Shown piece by piece: positions 12,458 through 63,465 of a DNA stretch of 64,000 bases. Under the pieces are notes generated by a model. The model saw only the letters and a program-made list of their open reading frames with translations, had not been told where the DNA came from and made no database searches. The DNA is from Patiria pectinifera (lineage: Eukaryota; Echinodermata; Asteroidea; Valvatida; Asterinidae). A program made the translations under genes and the position numbers. The stretch's first letter is position 1. Each line of letters opens with the position of its first letter. The DNA lies in NCBI GenBank assembly GCA_029964075.1, contig CM057133.1:12362699-12426698 (forward strand), in the 5' to 3' direction.

Positions 12458-13453
12458 ATGGAAAATAATGGAACTGATTTCCTTAAAATAGACGTACAAT
12501 TCAGTCAACTGGTTCATGCATTGTTGGTAGCCATTATACCCCTGACTTTTATTAGTCTATTGATCCATTGCTACATCATATTCTCAGTTATTTTCAACAG
12601 AACTCTGCACAGTGCGTCAAATTACTTACTTGCCAATCTGTGTACATCAGTTGTATTTTCAAACTCATTTTTCATAGTTAATGCGTATCTCCTTCTGTTC
12701 CCAGTTACAGTTTATATTGAATTTTCGAGCCCCACAATTTTACAGACACATAACATTTTTTCTATTCCTAGTGTGTTTGTTACATTTTCCTTTATGTCCA
12801 GCTCTGCCGTTGTTGCCAGTGACCGCTTTTTCAAAGTGGCCCATCCATTGAGATATTTGGGCTTCATGACCGATAAGACTTGCGGCTGTCTCATAGGTGC
12901 TTGCTGGGTTCTGTCCGTTATTGTTTCTTCATGTTTTGCTGCTGTGTTTCTCACTAGTGAAGTAAATGTCTCAGCGGCTAATAGTACCACAGACTATATT
13001 GAAGCCATAAGATCGAGCCCTCCTAATCATATTTTTGCCATATTTTTAACCGTCATCATTGTCCTGGGTCTACTGATTATTGATGGGTTTGTGCTGGGTT
13101 TGTTGCGCATTGCCAGAGAACAGCGGAGAAAAATACAAAACGAACTCAACATGCTGCCAAACATTGGTGCAAACAGAGTCCGACAGCTAGGACAGGGCTC
13201 CAACAAAACCATCAGATACATCCTTTACCTGGGGTCTTACACTTTGGCTTGGTTACCCTTTGCCATTATGTTCAACATGGTCATCTTCTCAAATATTGAC
13301 TTGGGAACAAGCATGGGTATTTTAATGGGGTTACTTTTGCTGGCACTTTTCCAGTTGATGTACGGTACGCTTTTCCTGACATTTATGCAGGAAGAGCACA
13401 GGAAAGTTCTGCAAAGCACATGGCAAGCTCTTGTTCAGAAACTGAAGTGTTAG
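12458..13453 (+). CDS. Intronless olfactory-receptor-like GPCR (group 2, R1)
   Basis: 331 aa. NGT at 4-6, and NVS 170 plus NST 175 in ECL2, are sequons. TM segments are at about 20-46, 55-81, 95-121, 143-166, 190-217, 252-277 and 285-309. Key sites: H37 at 1.50, V65 at 2.50, no Cys at 3.25, DRF 122-124 followed by FKVAHPLRY, W150, A-W-L-P 264-267, IL3 EQRRKIQNELNMLPNIGA, and TM7 MYGTLFLTF instead of NPxxY. An upstream ORF of nine codons (12425-12454, starting MHLLIMKKQ) ends 3 nt before ACCATGG. A CCCCAG acceptor-like site at about 12414-12420 could join a 5' exon. The 3' flank matches that of R3, not R2. Confidence 0.93.
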   Translation: MENNGTDFLKIDVQFSQLVHALLVAIIPLTFISLLIHCYIIFSVIFNRTLHSASNYLLANLCTSVVFSNSFFIVNAYLLLFPVTVYIEFSSPTILQTHNIFSIPSVFVTFSFMSSSAVVASDRFFKVAHPLRYLGFMTDKTCGCLIGACWVLSVIVSSCFAAVFLTSEVNVSAANSTTDYIEAIRSSPPNHIFAIFLTVIIVLGLLIIDGFVLGLLRIAREQRRKIQNELNMLPNIGANRVRQLGQGSNKTIRYILYLGSYTLAWLPFAIMFNMVIFSNIDLGTSMGILMGLLLLALFQLMYGTLFLTFMQEEHRKVLQSTWQALVQKLKC

Positions 13454-13784
13454 ATGTAAGATCGTCTTGTGTACAATCCCCAAGTCAGCTCTCGGGACAT
13501 GATTGTCATTCAGTCGGTTAATGTAGGTGACGTTGAGATCCCAGTGAATGTGTAAGCTTTGCACTGTGATTTAATAGTGTTGTCAAATATAAGTGGCACA
13601 CTTTTAAAAGCCCTTTTCATCATTGTTCTCTTATGAATGATGCTGTTTTAGGTTGATAACTTCACAAGGTATTTGGTTCTAGTTCTTTCTTTCCTTTGAG
13701 CAAGATTTTCTCATTAAATTGTTACAGTGTAGGTTGGTTACAGGCTAATTCATTTTTCCAAGAAGTAATATTCTGATCATTTCC

Positions 13785-14035
13785 CTATCATCAATATTGT
13801 GGTAATGGTCTTAATTTGGATTAGCTGTTATCAAAGTCTCTGCCAACCTCATTGAAACACCATCCTTCCTATCTTAGTAAGATCTAAACTACAAGTTAAA
13901 TTGGTACTTTAAATTAACTTCCCTCCTTGTTTGATATCACAATTAATATTTTATACCCGTCACCATAGTTAATAAAGTTTTCGGAATTATCTCCGGCATT
14001 TGAGGCATCAGAACTAGTGAACAGGATATTGAGTG
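13785..14035 (+). repeat. Recurring AATAAA spacer module (type copy)
   Basis: Order of words: TATCATCA, a 'caaagtctc(t/c)gccaacct' box, a C-rich run, 'agatctaaactacaagtta', 'ttgatatcacaattaatatt', 'gtcaccatagttaataaag', then 'gcatttgaggcatcag'. Other copies are near 6490, 9490, 17245, 20600 (split by a MITE), 24165, 27475, 42845, 47235, 50665, 54025, 57230 and 60650, with partial ones near 10590 and 43905. All are in the same orientation, although group 1 genes are on the opposite strand. For group 2 genes the AATAAA is a possible polyadenylation signal about 500-700 bp past the stop. Confidence 0.7.
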
Positions 14036-15800
14036 GGAAATTACAAGGAGACTAGAACCAGTTTGTCAGATGGCAAATGGCCTGGACACGAAATTTGTTT
14101 TTCTAGAGAATACGCCCTCTCTCTTGTTGACAGCAGTAAAGCTTATTCCCTCATTAGCTCTGTGGGACTAATGAAGATGAATTTGACAGTCGACTTCCCC
14201 TCTTTGACTTTGTGAGTTGCTGCATCAATTTAGGTAGAAGCATTGTGTATACAACAAATGATGGCTGTGTTACACATTCAAAATGAAGGCCGTTTATTAT
14301 TAATGTCTAGTTGTGGCAGGATCGCTCAGTTTGCGTGACTGAGATTTCGTAGAAGAGATAATGTTTTCTGCTGTGCAGGAAGCTCCTGATCTGTACTGCT
14401 GGCAAAATCTGAACTTTTCTCCTATCATCGTATTTGCTTGTTATCTGCACTTTTTGGTACCTCGTTGTGACTTTGTCAATGGACAACTTTGCCCTTCACT
14501 GATGTAACTTTGTAAGCACTGTACACTCTGCACAACTTGTGAGGAAATAGCTTGCTTAGGCTGGACTTGAACCAACGACCTCCTGCTTACTAGTTGAGAT
14601 GTCTCAGCTCAACTACAGAGCTTGTCAGTGGTGGCTGGCTGATTCGCATTCCACGCAGCGGCTGGAAATATACAGCACTGTGCACCCATAGAGGGCACAA
14701 GCCTGAATAAAGTGCTGATGAACACTTTATTTCGATACATTGTGATTCATTTACTACAAAGCAAACAAGTTTATTATGGAGGAGAAAGTCTGAGAAAAAC
14801 TTCATCAGTCATCTTCTAGTTTTGAGGAGGTCATGTACGTGTATTTGTAAGCCTTCAGCTAGCGTGTCTGTCAGCTGAGCCATCATGTTGCTCGGAAAAA
14901 GTTGTCTACATACATTGTGCATGCATACAGTTGAGCAACAAGAACATTTTTAATGTGTTGACACTTGGCATGCTTGGTACAGTTGTTCTGCAGTAGACTT
15001 TTCTTCTAGAACAATGAACATTTCCATGAACGATTGAATTTCTTTCTGCTGCAGTTTAATTTGCTTGATTCACCAGTGGACGAGCAGAAAAGTTAGTATA
15101 ACTACACTTCCTGACAGGTTTAGAGTTCTGTGCACCAGCGAATCTTCTTCACTTGGAATGAGGCTGAGTTTATGATGAATGAAGAAAGCTAGATCCACTG
15201 GTCCCAAATTCAGACCAAGGAAATTTGGACCACCCACCATACTGGTTCTGTATACAACCTACTCTCGTTTGCTGTATCAGTATCTTCTCTGTAACGGCAG
15301 TACCTCAAGCAAGTACTGGCTTCAAGACTTCTAATGATAGAATATGATGCAGCTTCCTGCCAGCTTCACACAATGACTAAGCAGCTACAATTGCGATTGC
15401 AAATGTCATTCTTGAGCACTTTCGTTTCTCCATGCAAAATTGCACAGGACCTATTGGACAATTATGACGGACTGAAACATCACAGCTGTTGAAAATAACC
15501 TCCAAAAAGTTAAAGGTTCTCATGGTGGAAATTCAACTAGTAAATTGTTTGCGTAGTTTTGATTTCACAACTTAAAAACCAACTGTACGTTGTTGAATTC
15601 CCATTGATATTTTCCCATTTTTTGTTATTGTTGGTTGATATTTTTTATCTGCCATTGTGCAATTGTATCATTTCATTGTGCAATTGAATCTTTCCATTGT
15701 CAAAAAGCCTTTTTGTTTAGGTTTGTGAGACATTTGTGATTACACTTTGCTTTTATCCCCAGTGAACATGCATCTTCTAATTATGAAGAAACAGTGAACC

Positions 15801-16796
15801 ATGGAAACTAATGGAACTGATTTCCCTGACGTAGACCCACAATTCAGTCAATTGGTTCATGCATTGTTGGTAGCCATTATACCCCTGGCTTTTATTAGTC
15901 TATTGATCCATTGCTATATCATATTCTCAGTTATTTTCAACAGAACTCTGCACAGTGCGTCAAATTACATACTTGCCAATCTGTGTGCATCAGTTGTATT
16001 TTCAAACTCATTTTGCATAGTTTTTATGTGTCTCTTTCTGCTCCCAGTTTCAGTTTATATTGAATTTTCGAGCCCCACAATTTTACAGACACATATAATT
16101 TTTTCTATTCCTATTGTGTTTGTTACACTTTCCTTTATGTCCAGCTCTGCCGTTGTTGCCAGTGACCGCTTTTTCAAAGTGGCCCATCCATTGAGATATT
16201 TGGGCTTCATGACCGATAAGACTTGCGGCTGTCTCATAGGTGCTTGCTGGGTTCTGTCCGTTATTGTTTCTTCATGTTTTGCTGCTGTGTTTCTCACTAG
16301 TGAAGTAAATCTCTCTGCGGCTAATAGTACCACATACTATATTGAAGCCCTAAGATCGAGCCCTCCTAATCATATTTTTGCCATATTTTTCACTGTCATC
16401 ATTGTCCTAGGTCTACTGATTATTGATGGGTTTGTGCTGGGTTTGTTGCGCATTGCCAGAGAACAGCGGCGAAAAATACAAAACGAACTCAACATGCTGC
16501 CAAACATTGGTGCAAACAGAGTCCGACAGCTAGGACAGGGCTCCAACAAAACCATCAGATACATCCTTTACCTGGGTTCTTACACTTTGGCCTGGTTACC
16601 CTTTGCCATTATGTTCAACATGGTCATCTTCTCAAAGATTGGCTTGAGAACAAGCATGAGTATTTTAATGGGGTTACTTTTGCTGGTACTTTTCCAGTTG
16701 ATGTACGGTACGCTTTTCCTGACATTTATGCAGGAAGAGCACAGGAAAGTTCTGCAAAGCACATGGCAAGCTCTTGTTCAGAAACTAAAGTGTTAG
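15801..16796 (+). CDS. Intronless olfactory-receptor-like GPCR (group 2, R2)
   Basis: 331 aa, same topology as R1. The N-terminal block is TDFPDVDPQFSQL. TM2-ECL1 reads CIVFMCLFLLPVSVYIEFSS. From DRFFKVAHP through IL3 it is nearly identical to R1, with the ECL2 sequons present as NLS and NST. The TM6-ECL3-TM7 block (SKIGLRTSMSILMGLLLLV) is identical to that of R4, whose N-terminal half is quite different. This is a clear mosaic. The 3' flank (GATCCTCCCATGTACATG) is also shared with R4. The upstream ORF at 15768-15797 terminates 3 nt before the start. R7 in array 2 is its near twin except for the TM6-ECL3 block and three IL3/TM6 sites. Confidence 0.93.
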   Translation: METNGTDFPDVDPQFSQLVHALLVAIIPLAFISLLIHCYIIFSVIFNRTLHSASNYILANLCASVVFSNSFCIVFMCLFLLPVSVYIEFSSPTILQTHIIFSIPIVFVTLSFMSSSAVVASDRFFKVAHPLRYLGFMTDKTCGCLIGACWVLSVIVSSCFAAVFLTSEVNLSAANSTTYYIEALRSSPPNHIFAIFFTVIIVLGLLIIDGFVLGLLRIAREQRRKIQNELNMLPNIGANRVRQLGQGSNKTIRYILYLGSYTLAWLPFAIMFNMVIFSKIGLRTSMSILMGLLLLVLFQLMYGTLFLTFMQEEHRKVLQSTWQALVQKLKC

Positions 16797-19252
16797 ATGT
16801 TAGATCCTCCCATGTACATGTACATGCAAACCCCAAATCAGCTCGCGGGACAAAATTCTCATTCAGTCGGTTAATTAACCCTCCTATGGTAACATGCATT
16901 GTCAGCCTGCTTATTACTTGGGTCAATATTGGTCAAGACCCCCATTGGTTTGTAAACAGTAGGCCAGGAGGTGAGGAAGAAAATGTTGACCATTGGTGAC
17001 CTCTTAAGCAAAGGGAGCCGGGGTTTGTCAAATATAAGTGTGCCCGTTGGCATACTTTTCAAAGCCCCATTTCGTCATTGTTCTCTTATGAATGATGCTA
17101 TTTTAGGTGGGTAACTTCACAAGGTATTTGGTTCAAGTTCTTTCTTTCCTTTGAGCAAGATTTTCTCATAATAGTTGGTATTATAATGTAGGTTTGTTTG
17201 AGGGTAGTTCATTTCGAAGAAGTAATATTCTGACCTTGTTGCTATCATCAAAGTGGTATGGTCCTAGTTTGGATTAGTTTTCCAAGGCTCCACCAACCTG
17301 AGTTAACCCTCCCCCACCCCAACTTCCTGCTCTGACAAAGATCTAAACTACAAGTTAATATAGTACTTTAAATTAATTTTACCTCCTTGTTTGATATCAC
17401 AATTAATATTGTATACCACTGTCACCATAGTTAATAAAGTTTTCGGAATTATCTCCGGCATTTGAGGCATCAGAACTAGTGAACAGGATATTAAGTGGGA
17501 AATTACAAGGAGACTAGAACCTGTTTGTCAGATGGCAAATGGCCTGGACACAAAATTTAGTTTTCTAGAGAAAACGCCCTCTCTCTTGTTGACAGCAGGA
17601 AAGCTTATTCCCTCATTAGCTCTGTGGGACTAATGAAGATGAATTTGACAGTCGACTTCCCCCACTCTGACTTTGTCAGTTGCTGCATCAATTTAGGTAG
17701 AAGCATTGTGTATACAACAAATGATGGCTGTGCTACACATTCAAAATGAAGGCCATTTATTAATGTCTAGTTGTGGCAGGATTGCTCAGTTTGCAGGACT
17801 GAGATTTCGTAGAAGAGATGTTTTCCGCTGCGCAGGAAGCTTCCGATCTGTACTGCCGGCAAAATCAGAACTTTTCTCTTATCATTGTAATTGCTTGTTA
17901 TCTGCACTTTTTGGTACCTCGTTGTGACTCTGTCAACGAACAACAATTTAATATTGCATTTTGCCCTTCACTGATGTAACTTTGTAAGCACTGTACACTC
18001 TGCACAACTTGTGAGGAAATAGCTTGCTTAGGCTGGACTTGAACCAACGACCTCCTGCTTACTAGTTGAGATGTCTCAACTTAACTACAGAGCTTGCCAG
18101 TGGTGGCTGGCTGATTGGCATTCCACGCAGCGGCTGGAAATATACAGCATTGTGCACCCATAGAGGGCACAAGCATGAATGTTGTCATCAAAGTGCTGTT
18201 GAACACTTCGTTTGAATTCATTGTGATTCATGTTCTACAAATCAAACAAGTATTCTGGAGAGGAAAGTCTGAGAAAAACTTCATCAGTCATCTTCTAGTC
18301 TTTGAGGATGTCATGTACATGTATTTGTAAGCCTTCAGCTAGCGTGTCTGTCATCTGAGCCATCAGGTTGCTCGGAAAAAGTTGTCTACTTATTGTACAT
18401 ACATGTAGTTGAGCAACAAGAATATTTTTAATGTGTTGACAATTGGCATGCTTGGTACAGTTGTTCTACAGTAGACCTTACTTCTAGAACAATGACCATT
18501 TCCATGAGTGGTTGAATTTCTTTCTACTGCAGTTTAATTTGCTTGATTCTCCTGTGGACAAGCAGACAAGTTAACACACCCAGAACCTCTACACTTCCTG
18601 ACAGGTTTACAGCGCTGTGCACCATCGAATCTTCTTCACTTGGATTGAGGCCGAGTTTATGATGAATGAAGAAAGCTAGATCCACTGATCACAAACTCGG
18701 ACCAGGAAGTTTGGACCACCTACCATACTGGTTCTCTATATGACCTACCATTGTTTGCTGTATCAGTATCTTCTCTGTAACGGCAGTACTTCAAACAGAG
18801 GTGTACTTCACAAGACTACTAATGACAGAATATGTCATGCAGTTTACCAGCAATTTCTTTCAATGACGGTGCAGCTACCATTCACATTTCACAAGCATTA
18901 TCATTCACAAGCACTTTGGTTTCTCCATGCAGAATTGCACAGGACCAAGTGAAAATTTGACAACAGCGTTGGACTCAAACATCACAGCTGTTGAAAAGAA
19001 CCTCCACAAAGTTCTCATGGCAAAAAAGCAACAAGATAAATTGTTCGCTACTTTTGATTCGACAACTTCAGACCAACTGTACATTTGTTAATTTCTCATT
19101 TTTGTCGATCTGTCCTTGTGCAATATTCTACCGCCACAAAGGTTTCTTTTAACATTGGTTTATGAGTCATTGATTTGTGACTAGTTTGCTTTCATTTCTC
19201 ACTGAACGTGAGCTACTTAAAAATGAACTGAATATGAAGAAACAAGTGAACC

Positions 19253-20251
19253 ATGGAAACTAATGGAACTGATTCCCCTGACATACCGGTACCTTTGGGT
19301 CCTTTATCTCATGCATTGGAAGTAATTTTTATACCCCTGGCTTTTATTAGTCTGTTGATCCATTTCTATATCATTTTCTCAGTTATTTTCAACAGAACTC
19401 TGCACAGTGCGTCAAATTACTTACTTGCCAATCTGTGTACATCAGTTGTATTTTCAAACTCATTTTGCATAGCTTATATGTGTTTCCTCCTGCTCTCAGT
19501 TTCAGTTGATATTGAATTTTCGAGCCCCACAATTTTACAGACACATAACATTTTTTCTATTCCTATTGTGTTTGTTACGGTTTCCTTTATGTCCAGCTCC
19601 GCCGCTGTTGCCGGTGACCGCTTTGTCAAAGTGGCCCATCCATTGAGATATTTGGGCTTCATGACCGATAAGACTTGCGGCTGTCTCATAGGTGCTTGCT
19701 TGGTTCTGTCCGTTATTGTTTCTTCATGTTTTGCTGCTGTGTTTCTCACTAGTGAAGTAAATGTCTCTGCGGCTAATAGTACCACATACTATATTGTAGC
19801 CCTAAGACCAAGCCCTCCTAATCATATTTTTGCCATATTTTTCACTGTCATCATTGTCCTAGGTCTACTGATTATTGATGGGTTTGTGCTGGGTTTGTTG
19901 CGCATTGCCAGAGAACAGCGGAGAAAAATACAAAACGAACTCAACATGCTGCCAAACATTGGTGCAAACAGAGTCCGACAGCTAGGACAGGGCTCCAACA
20001 AAACCATCAGATACATCCTTTACCTGGGTTCTTACACTTTGGCCTGGTTACCCTTTGCCATTATATTCCCTGTTTCCACCTTTTCATGGAAAATTGACTC
20101 TTCAATAAACACAGATATTTCAGTGGGGTTCCTATTGGTGTCAAATTTCCAGGTGATGTACGGTACGCTTTTCCTGACATTTATGCAGGAAGAGCACAGG
20201 AAAGTTCTGCAAAGCACAAGGCAAGCTCTTGTTCAGAAACTGAAGTGTTAG
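19253..20251 (+). CDS. Intronless olfactory-receptor-like GPCR (group 2, R3)
   Basis: 332 aa. N-terminal block TDSPDIPVPLGPLSHALEV. Loop and TM2 block CIAYMCFLLLSVSVDIEFSS. DRFVKVAHP. The TM4 tryptophan (position 150 in R1) is Leu here (GACLVLSV), a change shared only with R5 and R9. Except for two or three changes, the first 260 residues equal R5. The two differ in TM6-ECL3-TM7 (LAWLPFAIIFPVSTFSWKID versus LVWLPIAIIFPVYIFSWKID, and following). Arg replaces the usual tail Trp (STRQAL). The upstream ORF at 19234-19263 (MKKQVNHGN) overlaps the start codon out of frame by 11 nt. The 3' flank matches R1. Confidence 0.92.
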   Translation: METNGTDSPDIPVPLGPLSHALEVIFIPLAFISLLIHFYIIFSVIFNRTLHSASNYLLANLCTSVVFSNSFCIAYMCFLLLSVSVDIEFSSPTILQTHNIFSIPIVFVTVSFMSSSAAVAGDRFVKVAHPLRYLGFMTDKTCGCLIGACLVLSVIVSSCFAAVFLTSEVNVSAANSTTYYIVALRPSPPNHIFAIFFTVIIVLGLLIIDGFVLGLLRIAREQRRKIQNELNMLPNIGANRVRQLGQGSNKTIRYILYLGSYTLAWLPFAIIFPVSTFSWKIDSSINTDISVGFLLVSNFQVMYGTLFLTFMQEEHRKVLQSTRQALVQKLKC

Positions 20252-20789
20252 ATGTTAGATCGTCTTGTGTACAATCCCCAAGTCAGCTCTCGGGACATGA
20301 TTGTCATTCAGTCGGTTAATGTAGGTGACGTTGAGATCCCAGTGGATGTGTAAGCTTTGCAGTGTGATTTAATGAATATTGTCAAATATAAGTGTGCCTG
20401 TTGGCACACTTTTCGAAGCCCCATTTCATCATTGTTTTCCAATGAATGATGCTATTTTAGGTGGATAACTTCACAAGGTATTTAGTTGCAGTTCTTTCTT
20501 TCCTTTGAGCAAGATTTTCTTATAATAATTGGTATGATGTATGTTTGTTTGAGGGTAATTCATTTTTCAAAGAAGCGATATTCTATTAAACCATGTCGCT
20601 ATCATCAAAGTGGTGTGGTCCTAGTTTGGATTAGTTTTTATCCAAGCCTCCACCAACCTGAATTAACCCCCCCCCCCCACCCCAACTCCCTGTTCTGACA
20701 AAGATCTAAACTACAAGTTAATATAGTACTTTAAATTAACTTTACCTCCTTGTTTGATATCACAATTAATATTGTATACCACTGTCACC

Positions 20790-21093
20790 CAAGGGCGGAT
20801 CCAGGGGGGCCAAAGGGAGCTATGGCCCCCCAAAAAAACGAGACCAATTTTTTTTTTATGTGACATCGCAATAAAGGCAGGCAATGAGTACACCACCATC
20901 TTTTCCTCAAAAAACATTGGTTAAAGTGGTCAGAAATTGCCTCAGATCGCACCACAGAGCATCTAGAATCCAAAAATTTTTCGGGGCCCTTAAGCGGGCC
21001 CCGAACCCCACGCCGTAATTTTTTTGACCCACTTTTTGGGGGTCCAAAAAAAATTTTGGCCCCCCAAAAAATTGTGTTCTGGATCCGCCCTTG
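20790..21093. mobile_element. hAT-type MITE, 304 bp, copy 1
   Basis: Terminal inverted repeats CAAGGGCGGATCCA (20790-20803) and its exact complement (21080-21093). The 8-bp target duplication CTGTCACC is at 20782-20789 and 21094-21101. The site splits the AATAAA spacer module. All other copies of the module are uninterrupted, so the empty site is visible eleven times in this window and proves the insertion. A second copy is at 31239-31514. No transposase; the interior has G and C runs near the ends. Confidence 0.95.
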
Positions 21094-22737
21094 CTGTCAC
21101 CATAGTTAATAAAGTTTTCGGAATTATCTCCCGACAGTTGAGGCATCAGAACTAGTGAACAGGATATTGAGTGGGAAATTACAAGGAGACTAGAACCAGT
21201 TTGTCAGATGGCAAATGGCCTGGACACGAAATTTGTTTTTCTAGAGAATACGCCCTCTCTCTTGTTGTCAGCAGGAAAGCTTATTCCCTCATTAGCTCTG
21301 TGGGACTAATGAAGATGAATTTGACAGTCGACTTCCCCTCTTTGACTTTGTCAGTTGCTGCATCAATTTAGGTAGAAGCATTGTGTATACAACAAATGAT
21401 GGCTGTGCTACACATTCAAAATGAAGGCCATTTATTAATGTCTAGATGCGGCAGGATCGCACAGTTTGCACGACTGAGATTTCGTAGGAGAGATAATATT
21501 TTCTGCTGTGCAGGAAGCTCCTGATCTGTACTGCTGGCAAAATCTGAACTTTTCTCCTATCATTGTATTTGCTTGTTATCTGCACTTTTTGGTACCTCGT
21601 TGTCAATGGACAACTTTGCCCTTCACTGATGTTACTTTGTAAGCACTGTACACTCTGACAACTTGTGAGGAAATAGTTTGCTTAGGCTAGACTTGAACCA
21701 ACGACCTCCTGCTAACTAGTGGAGATGTCTCAGCTCAACTACAGAGCTTGTCAGTGGTGGCTGGCTGATTGGCATTCCACGCAGCGGCTGGAAATATACA
21801 GCATTGTGCACCCATAGAGGGCACAAGCCTGAATGTTGTCATCAAAGTGCTGATAAACACTTTGTTTCAATACATTGTGATTCATTTACTACAAAGCAAA
21901 CAAGTATTCTGGAGAGGAAAGTCTGAGAAAAACTTCATCAGTCATCTTCTAGTCATTGAGGATGTCATGTACATGTATTTGTTAGCCTTCAGCTACCGGT
22001 AGCGTGTCTGTCAGCTGAATCATCAGGTTGCTCGGAAAAAGTTGTCTACATACATTGTACATACATGAAGTTGAGCAACAAGAACATTTTTAATGTGTTG
22101 ACACGTGGCATGCTTGGTACAGTTGTTCTGCAGTAGACCTTACTTGTAGAACAATGACCATTTCCATGAGTGGTTGAATTTCTTTGTGCTGCAGTTTAAT
22201 TCACTTGATTCTCCTGTGAACAAGCAGACAAGTTAGCACACCCAGAACCTCTACACTTCCTGACAGGTTTACAGCGCTGTACACCAGTTGATCTTCTTCA
22301 CTTGGATTGAGGCCGAGTTTATAATGAATGAAGAAAGCTAGATCCACTGGTCGCAAACTCGGACCAAGGAAATTTGGACCACCCACCATACTGGTTCTCC
22401 ATATGACCTACCATCGTTTGCTGTATCAGTATCTTCTATGTAACCGCAGTACTTCAAGCAGGGGTGTACTTTACAAGACTACTAAGGACAGAATATGTCA
22501 TGCAGTTTCCCGGCAGTTTCTCACAATGACCATGCACTTTTGATTTCTCATTTTTTTGCTGGTTGGTTGATTTTCACCGATTTGCCATTGTGCAATATTC
22601 ACAAATTCACAAAGCCTTTTTGTATTTCTTTTTGGATTTGTGAGACATTGATAGGCCTATGTGATATTTTTGCTTTCATTTCTCGCTGAACGTGCGCTAC
22701 TTTACAAAATGAACTGATTATGAAGAAGCAGTGAACC

Positions 22738-34193: not shown

Positions 34194-34249
34194 GTAGGTA
34201 CATGTCAGCCTGTCCGTATTCAGTCCTAAAGTCAGAGATGGTAGAGAAT

Positions 34250-52676: not shown

Positions 52677-53674
52677 ATGGAAACTAATGGAACTGATTCC
52701 CCTGACATACCGGTACCTTTGGGTCCTTTATCTCATGCATTGGAAGTAATTTTTATACCCTGGCTTTTATTAGTCTGTTGATCCATTTCTATATCATTTT
52801 CTCAGTTATTTTCAACAGAACTCTGCACAGTGCGTCAAATTACTTACTTGCCAATCTGTGTACATCAGTTGTATTTTCAAACTCATTTTGCATAGCTTAT
52901 ATGTGTTTCCTCCTGCTCTCAGTTTCAGTTGATATTGAATTTTCGAGCCCCACAATTTTACAGACACATAACATTTTTTCTATTCCTATTGTGTTTGTTA
53001 CGGTTTCCTTTATGTCCAGCTCCGCCGCTGTTGCCGGTGACCGCTTTGTCAAAGTGGCCCATCCATTGAGATATTTGGGCTTCATGACCGATAAGACTTG
53101 CGGCTGTCTCATAGGTGCTTGCTTGGTTCTGTCCGTTATTGTTTCTTCATGTTTTGCTGCTGTGTTTCTCACTAGTGAAGTAAATGTCTCTGCGGCTAAT
53201 AGTACCACATACTATATTGTAGCCCTAAGACCAAGCCCTCCTAATCATATTTTTGCCATATTTTTCACTGTCATCATTGTCCTAGGTCTACTGATTATTG
53301 ATGGGTTTGTGCTGGGTTTGTTGCGCATTGCCAGAGAACAGCTGCGAAAAATACAAAACGAACTCAACATGCTGCCAAACATTGGTGCAAACAGAGTCCG
53401 ACAGCTAGGACAGGGCTCCAACAAAACTATCAGATACATCCTTTACCTGGGGTCTTACACTTTGGTCTGGTTACCCATTGCCATTATATTCCCTGTTTTC
53501 ATCTTTTCATGGAAAATTGACTTTGCAATAAACACAGATATTGCAATGGGGTTCCTATTGGTGTCAGTTTTCCAGGTGATGTACGGTACGCTTTTCCTGA
53601 CATTTATGCAGGAAGAGCACAGGAAAGTTCTGCAAAGCACATGGCAAGCTCTTGTTCAGAAACTTAAGTGTTAG
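52677..53674 (+). pseudogene. Frameshifted olfactory-receptor-like GPCR (group 2, R9)
   Basis: The normal start ACCATGG is at 52677, but one C is missing from the run in 'tataccctgg' near 52757 (intact units have four C). Reading from the start, the frame leaves the family sequence at about residue 28 and stops at TGA about ten codons later. The remaining frame is open from TM1 to the stop at 53674 and otherwise matches R3 up to TM6 and R5 after it (FPVFIFSWKIDFAINTDIAMG), with one further change, REQLRKI in IL3. It could be a pseudogene, a segregating null allele, or a homopolymer sequencing error. Upstream ORF at 52658-52687. Confidence 0.85.
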
Positions 53675-55814
53675 ATGTTAGATCCTCCCATGTGCATGCA
53701 AACCCAGCTCGCGGGACATGATTCTCATTCAGTTGGTAAATGTACCGGTAGGTGACGTTGAGATCCCAGTGGATGTGTAAGCTTCGAAGTATGATTTGAA
53801 GAATATTGTCATTTTTTTTATAAGTGGCACACTTTGCAAAGCCCTTTTCATCATTGTTTGCTTATGAAGGATTTTAAATTAAGGGGTGGATAACTTCACA
53901 ATGTATTTACCGGTAGTTCTAGTTCTTTCTTTCCTTTGAGCAATATTTTTTTCATTAAATTTGTACAGTGTAGGTTGGTTGCAGGCTAATTCATTTGCTA
54001 AGAAGTAGGCCTAGTATTCTGACCTTGTCGGTATCATCAAAGTGGTATTGGTCTTAGTTTAGATTAGTTTTAATAAAATCCTCCACCAACCTGAATCACC
54101 CCCACCCTATCTTACAGAGATCTAAACTACATGTTAAATTAGTATTTCAAACTTACCTCTCTGTTTGATATCACAATTAATCTTGTATACCACTGTCACC
54201 ACGGTTAATAAAGTTTTCTGGATTATCTCCGGCATTTGAGGCATCAGAACTAGTGAACAGAGACTAGAACCAGTTTGTCAGATGGCAAATGGCCTGGACA
54301 CAAAATTTAGTTTTCTAGAGAATACGCCCTTTCTCTTGTTGACAGCAGGAAAGCTTATTCCCTCATTAGCTTTGTGGGACTAATGAAGATGAATTTGACA
54401 GTCGACTTCCCCCACTCTGACTTTGTCAGTTGCTGCATCAATTAAGGTAGAAGCATTGTGTATATAACAAATGATGGCTGTGCTACACATTCAAAATGAA
54501 GGCCATCTATTAATGTCTAGATGCGGCAGGGCCGCGCAGTTTGCACGACTGAGATTTCGTAGGAGAGATAATATTTTCTGCTGTGCAGGAAGCTCCTGAT
54601 CTGTACTGCTGGCAAAATCTGAACTTTTCTCCTATCATTGTATTTGCTTGTTATCTGCACTTTTTGGTACCTCGTTGTGACTTTGTCAATGGACAACTTT
54701 GCCCTTCACTGATGTAACTTTGTAAGCATTGTACACTGTGCACAACTTGTGAGGAAATAGCTTGCTTAGGCTGGACTTGAACCAACAACCTCCTGCTTAC
54801 CAGTTGAGATGTCTCAGCTCAACTACAGAGCTTGTTAGGGGTGGCTGGCTGATTCGCATTCCATGCAGCGGCTGGAAATATACAGCACTGTGCACCCATA
54901 GAGGGCACAAGCCTGAATGTTGTCATCAAAGTGCTGATGAACACTTCGTTTGAATTCATTGTGATTCATGTTTACAAATCAAACAAGTATTCTGGAGAGG
55001 AAAGTCTGAGAAAAACTTCATCAGTCATCTTCTAGTCATTGAGGATGTCATGTACATGTATTTGTAAGCCTTCAGCTAGCGTGTCTGTCAGCTGAATCAT
55101 CAGGTTGCTCGGAAAAAGTTGTCTACATACATTGTACATACATGTAGTTGAGCAACAAGAACATTTTTAATGTGTTGACATTTGGCATGCTTGGTACAGT
55201 TGTTCTGCAGTAGACCTTTCTTCTGGAACAATGACCATTTCCATGAGCGATTGAATTTCTTTGTGCTGCAGTTTAATTCACTTGATTCTCCTGTGAACAA
55301 GCAGACAAGTTAGCACACCCAGAACCTCTACACTTCCTGACAGGTTTACAGCGCTGTACACCAGTTGATCTTCTTCACTTGGATTGAGGCCGAGTTTATG
55401 ATGAATGAAGAAAGCTAGATCCACTGGTCGCAAACTCGGACCAAGGAAATTTGGACCACCCACCATACTGGTTCTCCATATGACCTACCATCGTTTGCTG
55501 TATCAGTATCTTCTATGTAACCGCAGTACTTCAAGCAGGGGTGTACTTTACAAGACTACTAAGGACAGAATATGTCATGCAGTTTCCCGGCAGTTTCTCA
55601 CAATGACCATGCACTTTTGATTTCTCATTTTTTTGCTGGTTGGTTGATTTTCACCGATTTGCCATTGTGCAATATTCACAAATTCACAAAGCCTTTTTGT
55701 ATTTCTTTTTGGATTTGTGAGACATTGATAGGCCTATGTGATATTTTTGCTTTCATTTCTCACTGAACGTGCGCTACTTTACAAAATGAACTGATTATGA
55801 AGAAGCAGTGAACC

Positions 55815-56801
55815 ATGGAAACTAATGGAACTGATTTCTTTGACATACCTTTGGGTCCTTTATCTCAAGCATTGCTAATAATCTTTATACCTCTGGCTTT
55901 TATTAGTCTATTGATCCATTGCTATATCATATTCTCAGTTATTTTCAACAGAACTCTGCACAGTGCGTCAAATTACTTACTTGCCAATCTTTGTACATCA
56001 GTTGTATTTTCAAACTCATTTTGCATAGTTTTAATGTTTCAGTTTTTGTCCCCAGTATATATTGAATTTTCGAGCACCACAATTTTACAGACACAATACA
56101 TTTATTTCATTCCTATCGTGTTTGTTTCGATTTCCTTTATATTAAGCTCTGCCGTTGTTGCCGGTGACCGCTTTGTCAAAGTGGCCCATCCATTGAGATA
56201 TTTGGGCTTCATGACCGATAAGACTTGCGGCTGTCTCATAGGTGCTTGCTGGGTTCTGTCCGTTATTGTTTCTTCATGTTTTGCTGCTGTGTTTCTCACT
56301 AGTGAAGTAAATATCTCTGCGGCTAATAGTACCACATACTATATTGAAGCCATAATATCGAGCCCTCCTAATCATATTTTTGCCATATTTTTCACTGTCA
56401 TCATTGTCCTGGGTCTACTGATTATTGATGGGTTTGTGCTGGGTTTGTTGCGCATTGCCAGAGAACAGCGGCGAAAAATACAAAACGAGCTCAACATGCT
56501 GCCAAACATTGGCGCTAACAGAGTCCAACAGCTAGGACAGGGCTCCAACAAAACCATCAGATACATCCTTTACCTGGGTTCTTACACTTTGGCCTGGTTA
56601 CCCTTTGCCATTATGTTCAACATGGTCATCTTCTCAAAGATTGATGACTTGAGAACAAGCATGGGTATTTTAATGGGGTTACTTTTGCTGGCACTTTTCC
56701 AGTTGATGTACGGTACGCTTTTCCTGACATTTATGCAAGAAGAGCACAGGAAAGTTCTGCAAAGCACATGGCAAGCTCTTGTTCAGAAACTAAAGTGTTA
56801 G
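55815..56801 (+). CDS. Intronless olfactory-receptor-like GPCR (group 2, R10)
   Basis: 328 aa. The 5' flank and residues 1 to about 165 equal R4. It then has NIS in place of NVS for the first ECL2 sequon, EAIISSPPN, NRVQQLGQG, and the KIDDLRTSMGILM ECL3 block of R8, one residue longer than the R4 block. Thus it joins an R4-type 5' half to an R8-type 3' half. Short upstream ORF MKKQ at 55797-55811. The 3' flank has a small deletion ('cctatgcattgtcag') relative to R2/R4-type flanks. Confidence 0.92.
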   Translation: METNGTDFFDIPLGPLSQALLIIFIPLAFISLLIHCYIIFSVIFNRTLHSASNYLLANLCTSVVFSNSFCIVLMFQFLSPVYIEFSSTTILQTQYIYFIPIVFVSISFILSSAVVAGDRFVKVAHPLRYLGFMTDKTCGCLIGACWVLSVIVSSCFAAVFLTSEVNISAANSTTYYIEAIISSPPNHIFAIFFTVIIVLGLLIIDGFVLGLLRIAREQRRKIQNELNMLPNIGANRVQQLGQGSNKTIRYILYLGSYTLAWLPFAIMFNMVIFSKIDDLRTSMGILMGLLLLALFQLMYGTLFLTFMQEEHRKVLQSTWQALVQKLKC

Positions 56802-59220
56802 ATGTTAGATCCTCCCATGTACATGCAAACCCCAAATCAGCTCGCGGGACAAAATTCTCATTCAGTGGGTTAATTAACCCTCCTATGCATTGTCAGCCTG
56901 CTTATTACTTGGGTCAATATTGGTCAAGACCCCCATTGGTTTGTAAACAGTAGGCCAGGAGGTGAGGACGAAAATGTTGACCATTGGTGACCTCTTAAGC
57001 AAAGGGAGCCGGGGTTTGTCAAATATAAGTGTGCCCGTTGGCATACTTTTCAAAGCCCCATTTCGTCATTGTTCTCTTATGAATGATGCTATTTTAGGTG
57101 GGTAACTTCACAAGGTATTTGGTTCAAGTTCTTTCTTTCCTTTGAGCAAGATTTTCTCATAATAGTTGGTATTATAATGTAGGTTTGTTTGAGGGTAGTT
57201 CATTTCGAAGAAGTAATATTCTGACCGTGTTGCTATCATCAAAGTGGTAGGCCTATGGTCCTAGTTTGGATTAGTTTTCCAAGGCTCCACCAACCTGAGT
57301 TAACCCTCCCCCACCCCAACTTCCTGCTCTGACAAAGATCTAAACTACAAGTTAATATAGTACTTTAAATTAATTTTACCTCCTTGTTTGATATCACAAT
57401 TAATATTGTATACCACTGTCACCATAGTTAATAAAGTTTTCGGAATTATCTCCGGCATTTGAGGCATCAGAACTAGTGAACAGGATATTGAGTGGGAAAT
57501 TACAAGGAGACTAGAACCAGTTTGTCAGATGGCAAATGGCCTGGACACAAAATTTAGTTTTCTAGAGAATACGCCCTCTCTCTTGTTGACAGCAGGAAAG
57601 CTTATTCCCTCATTAGCTCTGTGGGACTAATGAAGATGAATTTGACAGTCGACTTCCTCTACTCTGACTTTGTCAGTTGCTGCATCAATTTAGGTAGAAG
57701 CACTGTGTATACAACAAATGATGGCTGTGCTACACATTCAAAATGAAGGCCGTTTATTAATGTCTAGTTGTGGCAGGATTGCTCAGTTTGCGGGACTGAG
57801 ATTTCATAGAAGAGAGAATGTTTTCCGCTGCACAGGAAAAATCAGAACTTTTCTCATATCATAGTAATTGCTTGTTATCTGCGCTTTTTGGTACCTCGTT
57901 GTGACTCTGTCAACGAACAACAATTTAATATTGCATTTTGCCCTTCACTGATGTAACTTTGTAAGCACTGTACACTCTGACAACTTGTGAGGAAATAGCT
58001 TGCTTAGGCTGGACTTGAACCAACGACCTCCTGCTTACTAGTTGAGATGTCTCAGCTCAACTACAGAGCTTGTCAGGGGTGGCTGGCTGATTCTCATTCC
58101 AGGCAGCGGCTGGAAATATACAGCACTGTGCACCCGTAGAGGGCACAAGCCTGAATGTTGTCATCAAAGTGCTGATGAACACTTCGATTCAATACAATGT
58201 GATTCATTTACTCACAAAGCAAACAAGTGTATTCTGGAGAGGACAGTCTGAGAAAAACTTCATCAGTCATCTTCTAGTCATTGAGGATGTCATGTACATG
58301 TATTTTTAAGCCTTCAGCTTGCGTGTCTGTCATCTGAGCCATCAGCTTGCTCGGAAAAAGTTGTCTACATATTGTACATACATGTAGTTGAGCAACAAGA
58401 ATATTTTTAATGTGTTGACACTTGGCATGCTTGGTACAGTTGTTCTACAGTAGACCTTACTTCTAGAACAATGACCATTTCAATGAGCGATTAAATTTCT
58501 TTCTACTGCAGTTTAATTCACTTGATTCTCCTGTGGACAAGCAGACAAGTTAGCACACCCAGAACCTCTACACTTCCTGACAGGTTTACAGCGCTGTTAT
58601 GTGCACCAGCGAATCTTCTTCGCTTTGATTGTGGCCGAGTTTATGATGAATGAAGAAAGCTAGATCCACTGATCACAAACTCGGACCAAGGAAATTTGGA
58701 CCACCCACCATACTGGTTCTCTATATGACCTACTCTCATTTGCTGTATCAGTATCTTCTCTGTAACAGCAGTATCAAGCAGAGGTGTTTTACACTAGCAT
58801 TCTTAGGACAGAATATGTCATGCAGCTTCCTGCCAGTTTCTCACTATGACCATCCAGCTACCATTTGCGATTGCAAGCACTGTGGTTTCTCCATGCAGAA
58901 TTTCACAGGACCTGTGAAGATTGGACAATAGTGTCGAACTGAAAATAACCTCCGAAAAGTTTTAAAATTTCATGTTGGAAAATCAACGAGTTAATTGTTT
59001 GCGTATTTTGATTTGACAACTTAAAATCCAACTGTATATTGTTGAATTCTCATTTCTATTTTTCCTTCTTTTTGGGGGGGCTGGTTGGTGTAATTGATCT
59101 GCCATTGTGCAATTTTTATCATTCCATCGTTGAAAAGCCTTTTTGTTTACATTTGTGATTATACTTTGATTTCATCCCCCAGTGAACATGCATCTTCTAA
59201 TTATGACGAAACAGTGAACC

Positions 59221-60204
59221 ATGGAAACTAATGGAACTGATTTCCTTGACATAGACCTACAATCCAGTCAATTGGTTCGTGCATTGTTGGTAGCCATTAT
59301 ACCCCTGGCTTTTATTAGTCTATTGATCCATTGCTATATCATTTTCTCAGTTATTTTCAACAGAACTCTGCACAGTGCGTCAAATTACTTACTTGCCAAT
59401 CTTTGTACATCAGTTGTATTTTCAAACTCATTTTGCATAGTTTTTATGTGTCTCTTTCTGCTCCCAGTTTCAGTTTATATTGAATTTTCGAGCCCCACAA
59501 TTTTACAGACACATATAATTTTTTCTATTCCTATTGTGTTTGTTACACTTTCCTTTATGTCCAGCTCTGCCGTTGTTGCCAGTGACCGCTTTTTCAAAGT
59601 GGCCCATCCATTGAGATATTTGGGCTTCATGACCGATAAGACTTGCGGCTGTCTCATAGGTGCTTGCTGGGTTCTGTCCGTTATTGTTTCTTCATGTTTT
59701 GCTGCTGTGTTTCTCACTAGTGAAGTAAATCTCTCTGCGGCTAATAGTACCACATACTATATTGAAGCCCTAAGATCGAGCCCTCCTAATCATATTTTTG
59801 CCATATTTTTCACTGTCATCATTGTCCTAGGTCTACTGATTATTGATGGGTTTGTGCTGGGTTTGTTGCGCATTGCCAGAGAACAGCGGCGAAAAATACA
59901 AAACGAACTCAACATGCTGCCAAACATTGGCGCTAACAGAGTCCAACAGCTAGGACAGGGCTCCAACAAAACCATCAGATACATCCTTTACCTGGGGTCT
60001 TACACTTTGGCTTGGTTACCCTTTGCCATTATGTTCAACATGGATATTGACTTGGGAACAAGCATGGGTATTTTAATGGGGTTACTTTTGCTGGCACTTT
60101 TCCAGTTGATGTACGGTACGCTTTTCCTGACATTTATGCAGGAAGAACACAGGAAAGTTCTGCAAAGCACATGGCAAGCTCTTGTTCAGAAACTAAAGTG
60201 TTAG
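59221..60204 (+). CDS. Intronless olfactory-receptor-like GPCR (group 2, R11)
   Basis: 327 aa. The 5' flank is of the R1 type (shared 'caagcagaggtgttttacactagc' region, given here only in part) and the N-terminus is TDFLDIDLQSSQLVRALLV. TM2 to IL3 is of the R2 type. A 12-nt in-frame deletion removes four residues between TM6 and ECL3 (FNMDIDLGTS versus FNMVIFSNIDLGTS), which should shorten the outer end of TM6. Function may be altered. The upstream ORF at 59188-59217 has Thr in place of the first Lys (MTKQ). The 3' flank is of the R2 type. Confidence 0.9.
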   Translation: METNGTDFLDIDLQSSQLVRALLVAIIPLAFISLLIHCYIIFSVIFNRTLHSASNYLLANLCTSVVFSNSFCIVFMCLFLLPVSVYIEFSSPTILQTHIIFSIPIVFVTLSFMSSSAVVASDRFFKVAHPLRYLGFMTDKTCGCLIGACWVLSVIVSSCFAAVFLTSEVNLSAANSTTYYIEALRSSPPNHIFAIFFTVIIVLGLLIIDGFVLGLLRIAREQRRKIQNELNMLPNIGANRVQQLGQGSNKTIRYILYLGSYTLAWLPFAIMFNMDIDLGTSMGILMGLLLLALFQLMYGTLFLTFMQEEHRKVLQSTWQALVQKLKC

Positions 60205-62472
60205 ATGTTAGATCCTCCCATGTACATGTACATGCAAACCCCAAATCAGCTCGCGGGACAAAATTCTCATTCAGTCGGTTAATTAACCCTCCTATGGTAA
60301 CATGCATTGTCAGCCTGCTTATTACTTGGGTCAATATTGGTCAAGACCCCCATTGGTTTGTACACAGTAGGCCAGGAGGTGAGGAAGAAAATGTTGACCA
60401 TTGGTGACCTCTTAAGCAAAGGGAGCCGGGGTTTGTCAAATATAAGTGTGCCCGTTGGCATACTTTTCAAAGCCCCATTTCGTCATTGTTCTCTTATGAA
60501 TGATGCTATTTTAGGTGGGTAACTTCACAAGGTATTTGGTTCAAGTTCTTTCTTTCCTTTGAGCAAGATTTTCTCATAATAGTTGGTATTATAATGTAGG
60601 TTTGTTTGAGGGTAGTTCATTTCGAAGAAGTAATATTCTGACCGTGTTGCTATCATCAAAGTGGTATGGTCCTAGTTTGGATTACTTTTCATCCAAGCCT
60701 CCACCAACCTGAGTTAACCCTTCCCCACCCCAACTCCCTGCTCTGACAAAGATCTAAACTACAAGTTAATATAGAACTTTAAATTAACTTTACCTCCTTG
60801 TTTGATATCACAATTAATATTGTATACCACTGTCACCATAGTTAATAAAGTTTTTTCGGAATTATCTCCGGCATTTGAGGCACCAGAACTAGTGAACAGG
60901 ATATTGAGTGGGAAATTACAAGGAGACTAGAACCAGTTTGTCAGATGGCAAATGGCCTGGACATGAAATTTAGTTTTCTAGAGAATACGCCCTCTCTCTT
61001 GTTGACAGCAGGAAAGCTTATTCCCTCATTAGCTCTGTGGGACTAATGAAGATGAATTTGACAGTCGACTTCCCCCACTCTGACTTTGTCAGTTGCTGCA
61101 TCAATTAAGGTAGAAGCATTGTGTATATAACAAATGATGGCTGTGCTACACATTCAAAATGAAGGCCATCTATTAATGTCTAGATGCGGCAGGGTCGCGC
61201 AGTTTGCACGACTGAGATTTCGTAGGAGAGATAATATTTTCTGCTGTGCAGGAAGCTCCTGATCTGTACTGCTGGCAAAATCTGAACTTTTCTCCTATCA
61301 TTGTATTTGCTTGTTATCTGCACTTTTTGGTACCTCGTTGTGACTTTGTCAATGGACAACTTTGCCCTTCACTGATGTTACTTTGTAAGCACTGTACACT
61401 CTGACAACTTGTGAGGAAATAGCTTGCTTAGGCTGGACTTGAACCAACAACCTCCTGCTTACTAGTTGAGATTCATTTACTACAAAGCAAACAAGTATTC
61501 TGGAGAGGAAAGTCTGAGAAAAACTTCATCAGTCATCTTCTAGTCATTGAAGATGTCATGTTCATGTATTTGTAAGCCTTCAGCTAGCATGTCTGTCAGC
61601 TGAGCCATCAGGTTGCTCGGAAAAAGTTGTCTACATATTGTACATACATGTACATGTAGTTGAGCAACAAGAACATTTTTAATGTGTTGACACTTGGTAT
61701 GCTTGGTACAGTTGTTCTGCAGTAGACCTTTCTTCTAGAACAATGAACATTTCCATGAGCGATTGAATTTCTTTCTACTGCAGTTTAATTCACTCGATTC
61801 TCCTGTGAACAAGCAGACAAGTTAACACACCCAGAACCTCTACACTTCCTGACAGGTTTACAGCGCTGTTATGTGCACCAGCGAATCTTCTTCACTTGGA
61901 TTGAGGCCAAGTGTATGATGGATGAAGAAAGCTAGATCCACTGATCACAAACTCGGACCAGGAAGTTTGGGCCACCTACCATACTGGTTCTCTATAAAAT
62001 GTAGTCTCATTTGCTGTATCAGTATCTTCTCTGTAACGGTAGTACTTCAAACAGAGGTGTACTTCACAAGACTTTTAATGACAGAATATGTCATGCAGTT
62101 TACCAGCAGTTTCTTTCAATGACGGTGCAGCTACCATTGCGAATGCAAATGTCATTTTTGAGCACTTTTGTTCCTCCATGCAGAATTGCATACATGTAGG
62201 ACCTAGTGAAGATTGGAAAATAATGTCTGCCTGAACCATCACAGCTGTAAAAAAATAACCTCCAAAAACTTAAAGGTTTCATGATAGAAACTCAACGAGT
62301 AAGCTGGTTGATTTTCAGCGATTTGCCATTGTGCAATATTTACAAAGTCACATAGCCTTTTTGTAATTCTTTTTAGATTTTTGAGACATTGATTTGTGAT
62401 ATTCTTGTTTTCATTTCTCACTGAACGTGCGCTACTTAAAAAATGAACTGATTATGAAGAAACAAGTGAACC

Positions 62473-63465
62473 ATGGAAACTAATGGAACTGATTCCCCTG
62501 ACATACTGGTACCTTTGGGTCCTTTATCTCATGCATTGCAAGTACTTTTTATACCCCTGGCTTTTATAAGTCTATTGATCCATTTCTATATCATATTCTC
62601 AGTTATTTTCAACAGAACTCTGCACAGTGCGTCAAATTACTTACTTGCCAATCTGTGTGCATCAGTTGTATTTTCAAACTCATTATGCATATTAATAATG
62701 TGGCTCTTTCTGTCCCCAGTTTCAGTTGAATTTTCGAGCCCCACAATTTTACAGACACATAACTTTTTTTTAATTCCTGTTGTGTTTGTTACGGTTTCCT
62801 TTAAGTCCAGCTCTGCTGTTGTTGCTGGTGACCGCTATTTCAAAGTGGCCCATCCATTGAGATATTTGGGCTTCATGACCAATAAGACTTGCGGCTGTCT
62901 CATAGGTGCCTGCTGGGTTCTGTCCGTTATTGTTTCTTCATGTTTTGCTGCTGTGTTTCTCACTAGTGAAGTAAATGTCTCTGCGGCTAATAGTACCACA
63001 TACTGTTTTGAAGCCATCAGATCGAGCCCTCCTTATCATATTTTTGCCATATTTTTAACCGTCATCATTATTGTGGGATTACTGATTATTGATGGGTTTG
63101 TGCTGGGTTTGTTGCGCATTGCCAGAGAACAGCGGCGAAAAATACAAAATGAGCTCAACATGCTGCCAAACATTGGTGCAAACAGAGTCCGACAGCTAGG
63201 ACAGGGCTCCAACAAAACCATCAGATACATCCTTTACCTGGGGTCTTACACTTTGGTCTGGTTGCCTTATGCCATTGCGTTCAACGTTGTCATCTTTTCA
63301 CGGCAAAGTCACTTTGCAACAGGCCTAGATATTTTTATGGGGTTGCTTTTGGTGACCCTTTTCCAGTTGATGTACGGTACGCTTTTCCTGACATTTATGC
63401 AGGAAGAACACAGGAAAGTTCTACAAAGCACATGGCAAGCACTTGTTCAGAAACTCAGGTGTTAG
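62473..63465 (+). CDS. Intronless olfactory-receptor-like GPCR (group 2, R12)
   Basis: 330 aa, the array 2 counterpart of R6. The two proteins are identical up to YTL in TM6, then differ at about eight positions within 35 residues: LVWLPYAIAFNVVIFSRQSHFATGLDIFMGLLLVTL against the R6 sequence, read here as separate blocks VWLPYAIAF, RQSHFATG and DIFMGLLLVTL. The remaining tail is the same. The upstream ORF at 62454-62483 overlaps the start. The clustering of changes in TM6-ECL3-TM7 parallels R3 versus R5. Confidence 0.92.
   Translation: METNGTDSPDILVPLGPLSHALQVLFIPLAFISLLIHFYIIFSVIFNRTLHSASNYLLANLCASVVFSNSLCILIMWLFLSPVSVEFSSPTILQTHNFFLIPVVFVTVSFKSSSAVVAGDRYFKVAHPLRYLGFMTNKTCGCLIGACWVLSVIVSSCFAAVFLTSEVNVSAANSTTYCFEAIRSSPPYHIFAIFLTVIIIVGLLIIDGFVLGLLRIAREQRRKIQNELNMLPNIGANRVRQLGQGSNKTIRYILYLGSYTLVWLPYAIAFNVVIFSRQSHFATGLDIFMGLLLVTLFQLMYGTLFLTFMQEEHRKVLQSTWQALVQKLRC

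Follow-up and report, generated by a model that had tools for sequence, protein, structure and literature searches.

We analyzed a window of 64,000 nucleotides (nt) from the sea star Patiria pectinifera (C5:12362699-12426698), which carries a tandem array of G protein-coupled receptor (GPCR) genes, and searched the genome (613.5 Mb in 1020 contigs) for related sequences. Twelve receptor units (R1 to R12), all on the plus strand, were found at the places given in Table 1, R1 to R6 on one contig (Y) and R7 to R12 on another (Z); five more units (X1 to X5) belong to a third contig (X), outside the window. The unit length was about 3.4 kb, and the one contig spanning the whole array contained six units. 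Three additional receptor open reading frames (ORFs), called group 1 here, are located on the minus strand of the window at 1742-8307. Coordinates are window positions, while nt and codon positions are counted within the unit or gene. C190, with 12 to 13 single-base indels per kb, was excluded from every unit count.

Of the window's receptor ORFs, 14 are intact; five of these were scanned against Pfam, and all five proteins matched 7tm_1 above the cut-off (44.8 to 70.9 bits versus 30.5). Class A GPCRs typically have a DRY-type motif at the end of transmembrane helix (TM) 3, WxP in TM6, and NPxxY in TM7, the last being common but not universal. D120, R121, W263, and P265 (R6 numbering) were invariant across 14 aligned proteins, whereas TM7 of R1 to R12 reads MYGTLFLTFM at the expected position of NPxxY. 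Given that this motif is not universal, class A membership was based on the Pfam matches, which the three array proteins scanned gave despite their TM7. Using R6 as the query, at least 122 matches were obtained genome-wide, with further clusters on C5, C9, C19, and C21, and tandem arrays of related rhodopsin-like GPCRs are present in this echinoderm. Two sequences encoding NGFFYGK, separated by 24 nt on one strand of the same chromosome, also point to a sea star (a reversed control pattern gave a single lone match): the NG peptide is NGFFYamide in starfish, NGFFFamide in a sea urchin, and NGIWYamide in a sea cucumber (PMC6156427).

Table 1. Receptor units, contig parts, and blocks of the receptor array (window positions)
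Feature	Description	Position	Strand	Basis
R1	Class A GPCR, 331 aa, single open frame, contig Y	12458..13453	+	ORF list; Pfam 7tm_1
R2	Receptor of the array, 331 aa, contig Y	15801..16796	+	ORF list
R3	Class A GPCR, 332 aa, contig Y	19253..20251	+	ORF list; Pfam scan
R4	327 aa, contig Y	22738..23721	+	ORF list
R5	332 aa, contig Y	26124..27122	+	ORF list
R6	Class A GPCR, 330 aa, last unit of the array on contig Y	29285..30277	+	ORF list; Pfam scan
R7	Contig Z, R2-like with R1/R11-like ECL3 block	45798..46793	+	Identity matrices, painting, codon comparison
R8	Contig Z	49235..50227	+	ORF list, identity matrices
R9	Contig Z, near-copy of R5 with 5' flank of R3; frame broken	52677..53674	+	Alignment, identity matrices
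R10	Contig Z, 5' R4-like, 3' R8-like	55815..56801	+	Painting
R11	Contig Z, mosaic	59221..60204	+	Identity matrices, painting
R12	Contig Z, R6-like	62473..63465	+	Codon comparison with R6
Block 1 of R1	Variable, N-terminus to outer TM1	12479..12568	+	Alignment, silent divergence
Block 2 of R1	Variable, TM2-ECL1-TM3	12665..12814	+	Alignment, silent divergence
Core of R1	DRF to start of TM6, silent divergence low save in ECL2	12815..13228	+	Silent divergence
ECL2 patch of R1	R1 codons 181-207, inside the claimed core	12998..13078	+	Silent divergence
Block 3 of R1	Variable, outer TM6-ECL3-outer TM7; R3- or X4-like in X1	13234..13355	+	Difference clustering
Mid-intergenic stretch	Homogeneous, example (unit position 1.5-2.6 kb)	13957..15057	+	Per-bin identity
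Contig Y, right part	Overlaps contig Z, ends at the gap	9238..42100	.	Self-comparison
Assembly gap	500 N, joins contigs Y and Z	42101..42600	.	Sequence
Contig Z in window	Counterpart of 9238 onward; match continues to 75489 beyond the window	42601..64000	.	Self-comparison

Along the coding alignment, 216 of 1002 columns were variable and 171 informative, and they clustered in the N-terminus, TM2-TM3, and TM6-extracellular loop (ECL) 3-TM7 (blocks 1, 2, and 3), with few between. An earlier note, made from the sequence alone, had described these three variable blocks around an almost unchanged stretch from DRF/DRY to the third intracellular loop. The clustering was as described, but the claimed core is not uniform, because part of ECL2 (R6 residues 179-205) forms a fourth variable patch, with synonymous (pS) and nonsynonymous (pN) differences of 0.17 and 0.08. 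The blocks had also been called ligand-facing. In a rough topology, with helix borders taken from a low-confidence AlphaFold2 model (mean predicted local distance difference test score [pLDDT] of 45.3 and predicted template modeling score [pTM] of 0.31 for the 14 window receptors), variable residues of the 11 intact proteins made up 78 of 158 positions in the outer half and 19 of 172 in the inner half. The outward position of the blocks agrees with this rough model, and their ligand-facing role is putative.

The contrast between blocks and core extended to silent sites. Among R1, R3, R4, and R6, which represent the four classes of contig Y, synonymous divergence (dS) was 0.17 to 0.25 in the blocks, 0.076 in the core, 0.045 in the link between TM1 and TM2, and 0.12 in the tail. 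The comparison of synonymous divergence proposed in the earlier note thus set a core dS of 0.07 to 0.08 against 0.17 to 0.25, i.e., two to three times lower than in the three variable blocks. Blocks 2 and 3 had a nonsynonymous divergence (dN) close to their dS; in block 1, dN was three quarters of dS. When the block mask was shifted circularly, a pS ratio as high as the one observed was found in 6 of 331 shifts and a pN ratio as high in 3 of 331. Since silent sites are low there as well, the core is homogenized by recombination, besides being constrained. We also looked for raised GC at the silent sites of the converted parts; GC at fourfold-degenerate sites (GC4) was 0.48 and 0.59 in core parts A and C, 0.26 in the link, and 0.24 to 0.46 in the blocks.

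Two other clusters put these values into perspective. Three genes of a diverged cluster at C5:12.01-12.03 Mb had pS values of 0.33 to 0.59 throughout, without the contrast between blocks and core, while their pN was lowest in the core parts (0.16 to 0.17) and reached 0.34 to 0.38 in the three blocks. In a trio at 12.59-12.61 Mb, most segments had a pS of about 0.10, the N-terminus had 0.05, and the link and tail had 0. Therefore, amino acid constraint on the core looks general across the family, and low core dS beside high block dS looks like a mark of this array in particular.

Recombination was analyzed in an alignment of 17 units, the 12 of the window and the 5 of contig X. The pairwise homoplasy index (PHI) test gave a P value of 0.001, the floor of 1000 permutations, for R1 to R6 (74 informative sites), R1 to R12 (145), and all 17 units (156), and GENECONV-like longest shared runs were significant in 19 of 66 pairs of the 12 units and 19 of 136 pairs of the 17. 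Breakpoint testing of this kind had been suggested in advance, with a single tree fitting all segments named as the refutation. The trees of the 5' blocks (1 plus 2), the core, and block 3 were in conflict, and each segment rejected the trees of the other two in approximately unbiased (AU) tests (P values from 9.1e-05 to 1.9e-101); under the Shimodaira-Hasegawa (SH) test, the block 3 tree was not rejected for the core (P = 0.069). The 5' blocks were compatible with the whole-gene tree (AU P = 0.26), which the core (P = 0.018) and block 3 both rejected.

Individual exchanges could be followed between contigs. R1 and X1 were 100% identical in the 5' flank, 99 to 100% in blocks 1 and 2, and 99% in the 3' flank but only 75% in block 3, with 1.1% difference outside this block; 31 of their 55 differences fell within 120 nt of block 3 (0 of 5000 shuffles), where X1 reads mostly as R3 or X4. 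This is a clean conversion tract that replaced ECL3 and kept both flanks. X4 is a crossover-type chimera, R6-like up to about nt 535 and from there mostly X1/R1-like into the 3' flank. In the painting, R10 and R4 diverged at nt 412-552; for R7 and R2, the split was at nt 723-726. The 120-nt stretch richest in differences lay at nt 1947-2066 in R2-R7 (15 of 5000 shuffles), 1318-1438 in R5-R9 (6 of 5000), 2914-3038 in R4-R10 (0 of 5000), and, in R6-R12, again in block 3 (763-882; 1 of 5000). The PHI and AU tests and the R1/X1 tract agree with the proposal that the variable blocks are shuffled by recombination.

The sharing patterns described for particular units were checked against identity matrices, and four of the five held. 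R2 and R4 have a common ECL3 (98%) and first 700 nt of the 3' flank (99%) but only 83 and 85% identity in blocks 1 and 2, and R1 and R7 have a common ECL3 (99%) but differ in their 3' flanks (82% identity). The 3' flank attributed in common to R1 and R3 was not found over the first 700 nt, their identity there being only 76%, and the closest matches of the R1 flank were X1 (99%) and X4 (96%). R11, said to be R1 at the 5' end and R2 at the 3' end, fits in its flanks (5' flank, 95% to R1 versus 84%; 3' flank, 99% to R2 versus 82%), but the gene interior alternates, with block 2 100% identical to R2 and block 3 100% identical to R1. R9 resembles R3 at the 5' end (5' flank, 100% versus 94% to R5) and R5 at the 3' end (block 3, 99% versus 91% to R3; 3' flank, 96% versus 74%), as claimed. 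A plain R3/R5 coding chimera was considered for R9 and rejected: its coding sequence differs from that of R5 by one deletion and two substitutions, and the R3 type is found only in the 5' flank. R3 and R5 are themselves identical across the first 669 nt of the coding sequence. The deletion removes one base of a run of four C's in R5 (CCCC to CCC) and breaks the frame near codon 28, which may reflect a real null allele or an assembly error. X2 to X5 are likewise all frame-disrupted; we do not claim them as pseudogenes, errors being possible in an array contig.

Within the coding sequence, the close pairs changed fastest in ECL3. R6 and R12 differ by 10 nucleotides, all in codons 262-295 (seven of eight codons nonsynonymous), R2 and R7 by 9, all from codon 242 onward (eight of nine), and R3 and R5 by 15, all from codon 224 onward (10 of 14). 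Over codons 259-298, these three pairs together gave 24 nonsynonymous and 3 synonymous changes, an excess that was not significant (P = 0.10) in pairs that are not independent. The group 1 genes G2 and G3 (4079-8307, minus strand), with proteins 91% identical and differences mostly N-terminal, have a half-gene pattern of their own (pS of 0.29 and pN of 0.17 in the N-terminal part versus 0.03 and 0.02 in TM6-TM7).

Low divergence was also found between the genes. From 1.5 to 2.6 kb after the ATG, identity among R1 to R5 was 92 to 98% per 100-nt bin, compared to 95 to 99% in the core bins, with a gap share of up to 0.41 in two bins, while near the next ATG it was only 76 to 88%. This mid-intergenic stretch contains one ATG-initiated ORF of at least 60 amino acids (71, on the other strand), and tRNA and Rfam searches of the window gave no match. 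Each unit was then painted from the others in six runs, and partner switches were counted per kb and unit. Their density was 2.4 to 2.9 in the core, 4.5 to 5.0 in the mid-intergenic stretch, 6.0 to 7.5 in the 3' flank, 4.4 to 5.6 near the next ATG, and 4.0 to 4.4 in the tail. Block 1 had 2.5 to 3.2, block 2 had 0.8 to 1.2, the link had 1.6 to 2.2, and block 3 had 5.6 to 6.1 with the X units and 2.1 to 2.4 without them. In the first parameter set, 13 of the 17 units switched their best partner within the core (15 switches). In simulations with 240 crossovers, the recovery ratio was 1.05 for the core, 1.15 for the 3' flank, and 1.38 for the mid-intergenic stretch.

These densities bear on what the core does. 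The earlier note took it for the crossover or conversion tract of the array, and a dedicated hotspot for shuffling the ligand-facing blocks would account for its low silent divergence, for the 13 units that change partner there at a per-kb rate above those of block 2 and the link, and for the R4/R10, X4, and R8/R10 junctions, all located at nt 412-552. However, the core had no excess of switches over intergenic DNA, even after allowing for the over-calling seen in the simulations, the mid-intergenic DNA is almost as homogeneous, and several tracts begin or end at nt 884-934, behind block 3 and outside the core. We thus consider a dedicated hotspot improbable: exchange runs across the whole unit and, therefore, the core does not emerge as a privileged tract, although a modest excess of exchange is possible there, because short conversions within it would be traceless. 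Far less probable still is an explanation with no special recombination at all, in which purifying selection on the core, diversifying or relaxed selection on the blocks, and an ordinary duplication history produced the pattern. The lower pN of the core is indeed repeated in the three genes at C5:12.01-12.03 Mb (relative to the blocks) and in the trio at 12.59-12.61 Mb (relative to TM2-TM3 and TM6-TM7), as such selection would predict. Yet selection of this kind does not explain why silent sites are low in the core and non-coding DNA is homogeneous too, nor the significant PHI, the single trees rejected by AU tests, or the likeness of R1 and X1 in both flanks but not in block 3.

The arrangement of the contigs determines how the twelve units should be read. 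Contigs Y and Z overlap by 32.9 kb (9238-42100 matching 42601-75489), at 95 to 100% identity in the right flank and 97% in the left, and the match ends at both edges of the gap. Contig X, inverted, repeats the left half, and its match to Y begins at the first base of Y; the scaffold order is X-Y-Z. Repeats that end at contig edges beside fixed-size gaps are what false haplotypic duplication leaves, a known error of heterozygous genome assemblies in which overlapping alternative contigs are placed successively across such a gap. Very probably, then, the linear order R1 to R12 is an assembly product, with R1 to R6 and R7 to R12 on different haplotypes laid end to end. Given the 32.9-kb overlap, comparisons between these two sets are most likely comparisons between haplotypes, and R1 to R12 most likely represent a single locus as carried by different parental chromosomes, not twelve successive genes.

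Twelve truly successive genes, created in a recent tandem duplication of 33 kb and accompanied upstream by another, inverted copy, would match the order as placed by the assembly, and three versions exist of the segment 9238-10760, which require more than one copy per haplotype if a single diploid animal was sequenced. Of 1498 ungapped columns of this segment, 61 have a difference specific to Z, 26 one specific to X, and 0 one specific to Y, and all three versions differ at 1. We regard twelve successive genes as unlikely. A serious possibility, although short of an even chance, is an intermediate arrangement in which haplotype A is contig Y, with six genes, and haplotype B consists of reversed X and Z. 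B would then have at least eleven genes and also contain the left-edge segment as an internal copy, and Y would have been inserted between the two halves of B. This arrangement would fit the scaffold order X-Y-Z and accommodate, in one diploid animal, two left flanks (X and Y, where a left-flank probe had its two full-length genomic matches), two good right flanks (Y and Z), and the three versions of 9238-10760. On the other hand, X is inverted in the scaffold, no join of X to Z was seen, and the same facts could be explained if the assembly includes more than two haplotypes, or by errors at the left end of Z, which has 8 single-base indels per kb. Same-chromosome pairs of receptor matches with equal or near-equal scores and opposite orientation were also found on C14 (36600447/36740962) and C6 (21945920/22041824), which may be further cases of such haplotype duplication in this assembly.

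Other elements were found around the array. An interspersed repeat of about 280 bp at 31239-31514 had at least 38 further short matches in the genome (84 to 93%) and adjoins an imperfect inverted repeat (76%) at 31519-31855. A second interspersed repeat, at about 9820-10290 in the left-edge segment, had three full-length copies and, among the matches listed, 52 shorter ones at 70 to 88% across the genome. The 500-N gap interrupts an ORF with many SP/SPR repeats at 40020-42100, and the counterpart of this ORF in contig Z is open to 75647 (744 codons), which fits an end of Y inside a gene.

Altogether, we consider it likely that this is a tandem class A GPCR array of a sea star in whose evolution ectopic gene conversion and unequal crossing over are frequent, with its outward-facing blocks kept diverse and with R1 to R6 and R7 to R12 on different haplotypes. 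The 3.4-kb units would pair unequally and give rise to crossovers and conversions spanning the whole unit. Stretches that are still similar, namely the inner core of the receptor and the mid-intergenic DNA, would continue to exchange and so remain similar, while diverged blocks with indels would either exchange less or have their diversity held by selection. The N-terminus, TM2-ECL1-TM3, part of ECL2, and TM6-ECL3-TM7 would move as short cassettes or as crossover halves. Selection for ligand recognition, rather than heteroduplex rejection alone, probably keeps the blocks diverse, and the receptors of the array are presumably chemosensory. A hypervariable locus in which alleles differ by whole ECL3 cassettes donated by neighbors and haplotypes are unequal (six versus eleven or more genes), under balancing selection as in major histocompatibility complex (MHC) or self-recognition loci and serving individual-specific chemosensing, is a speculative extension to which we give little credence. 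The array offers a clear non-vertebrate case of receptor diversity arising by cassette exchange while the signaling core is kept uniform, and the alternative contigs allow the exchanges to be mapped. At the same time, parental haplotypes may be mixed in the counts and orders of tandem receptors taken from this assembly, and family sizes and apparent duplications can therefore be wrong.

As in false haplotypic duplication, alternative overlapping contigs follow each other here across a fixed-size gap, but the overlap falls within a polymorphic tandem array whose copies are also truly rearranged. In the parts of the literature consulted, the closest parallel is the clustered protocadherins of fugu, where regional gene conversion with silent homogenization, and misassembly too, have been described (PMC1852091). 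Both are tandem paralogues with one part homogenized at silent sites and another divergent. The fugu genes, however, encode adhesion proteins with separate constant exons, and the homogenized part is the 3' end of the variable exon (PMC1852091), whereas the receptors studied here are open in one frame and their variable blocks flank the core on both sides; a rise in GC at third codon positions (GC3) reported in fugu (PMC1852091) had no clear equivalent in our data. Mammalian olfactory receptor clusters, according to a review, are likewise tandem GPCR genes with mosaics formed by gene conversion or recombination, which can also homogenize (PMC1995454). Unlike them, the sea star array belongs to another animal lineage, its silent profile separates the core from the outward blocks within one array, and the exchanges are visible on alternative contigs. 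Among echinoderms, the ApORs of the crown-of-thorns starfish and the surreal-GPCRs of sea urchins are putative olfactory rhodopsin-like GPCRs in tandem arrays with more change in extracellular regions (PMC5442662), a likeness to our genes in array organization. The term "gene conversion" does not occur in the ApOR paper (PMC5442662), and among the titles listed in literature searches none dealt with gene conversion of chemosensory GPCRs in echinoderms. The array thus belongs to kinds of system already known: regional conversion, mosaic olfactory receptors, and tandem echinoderm GPCR arrays.

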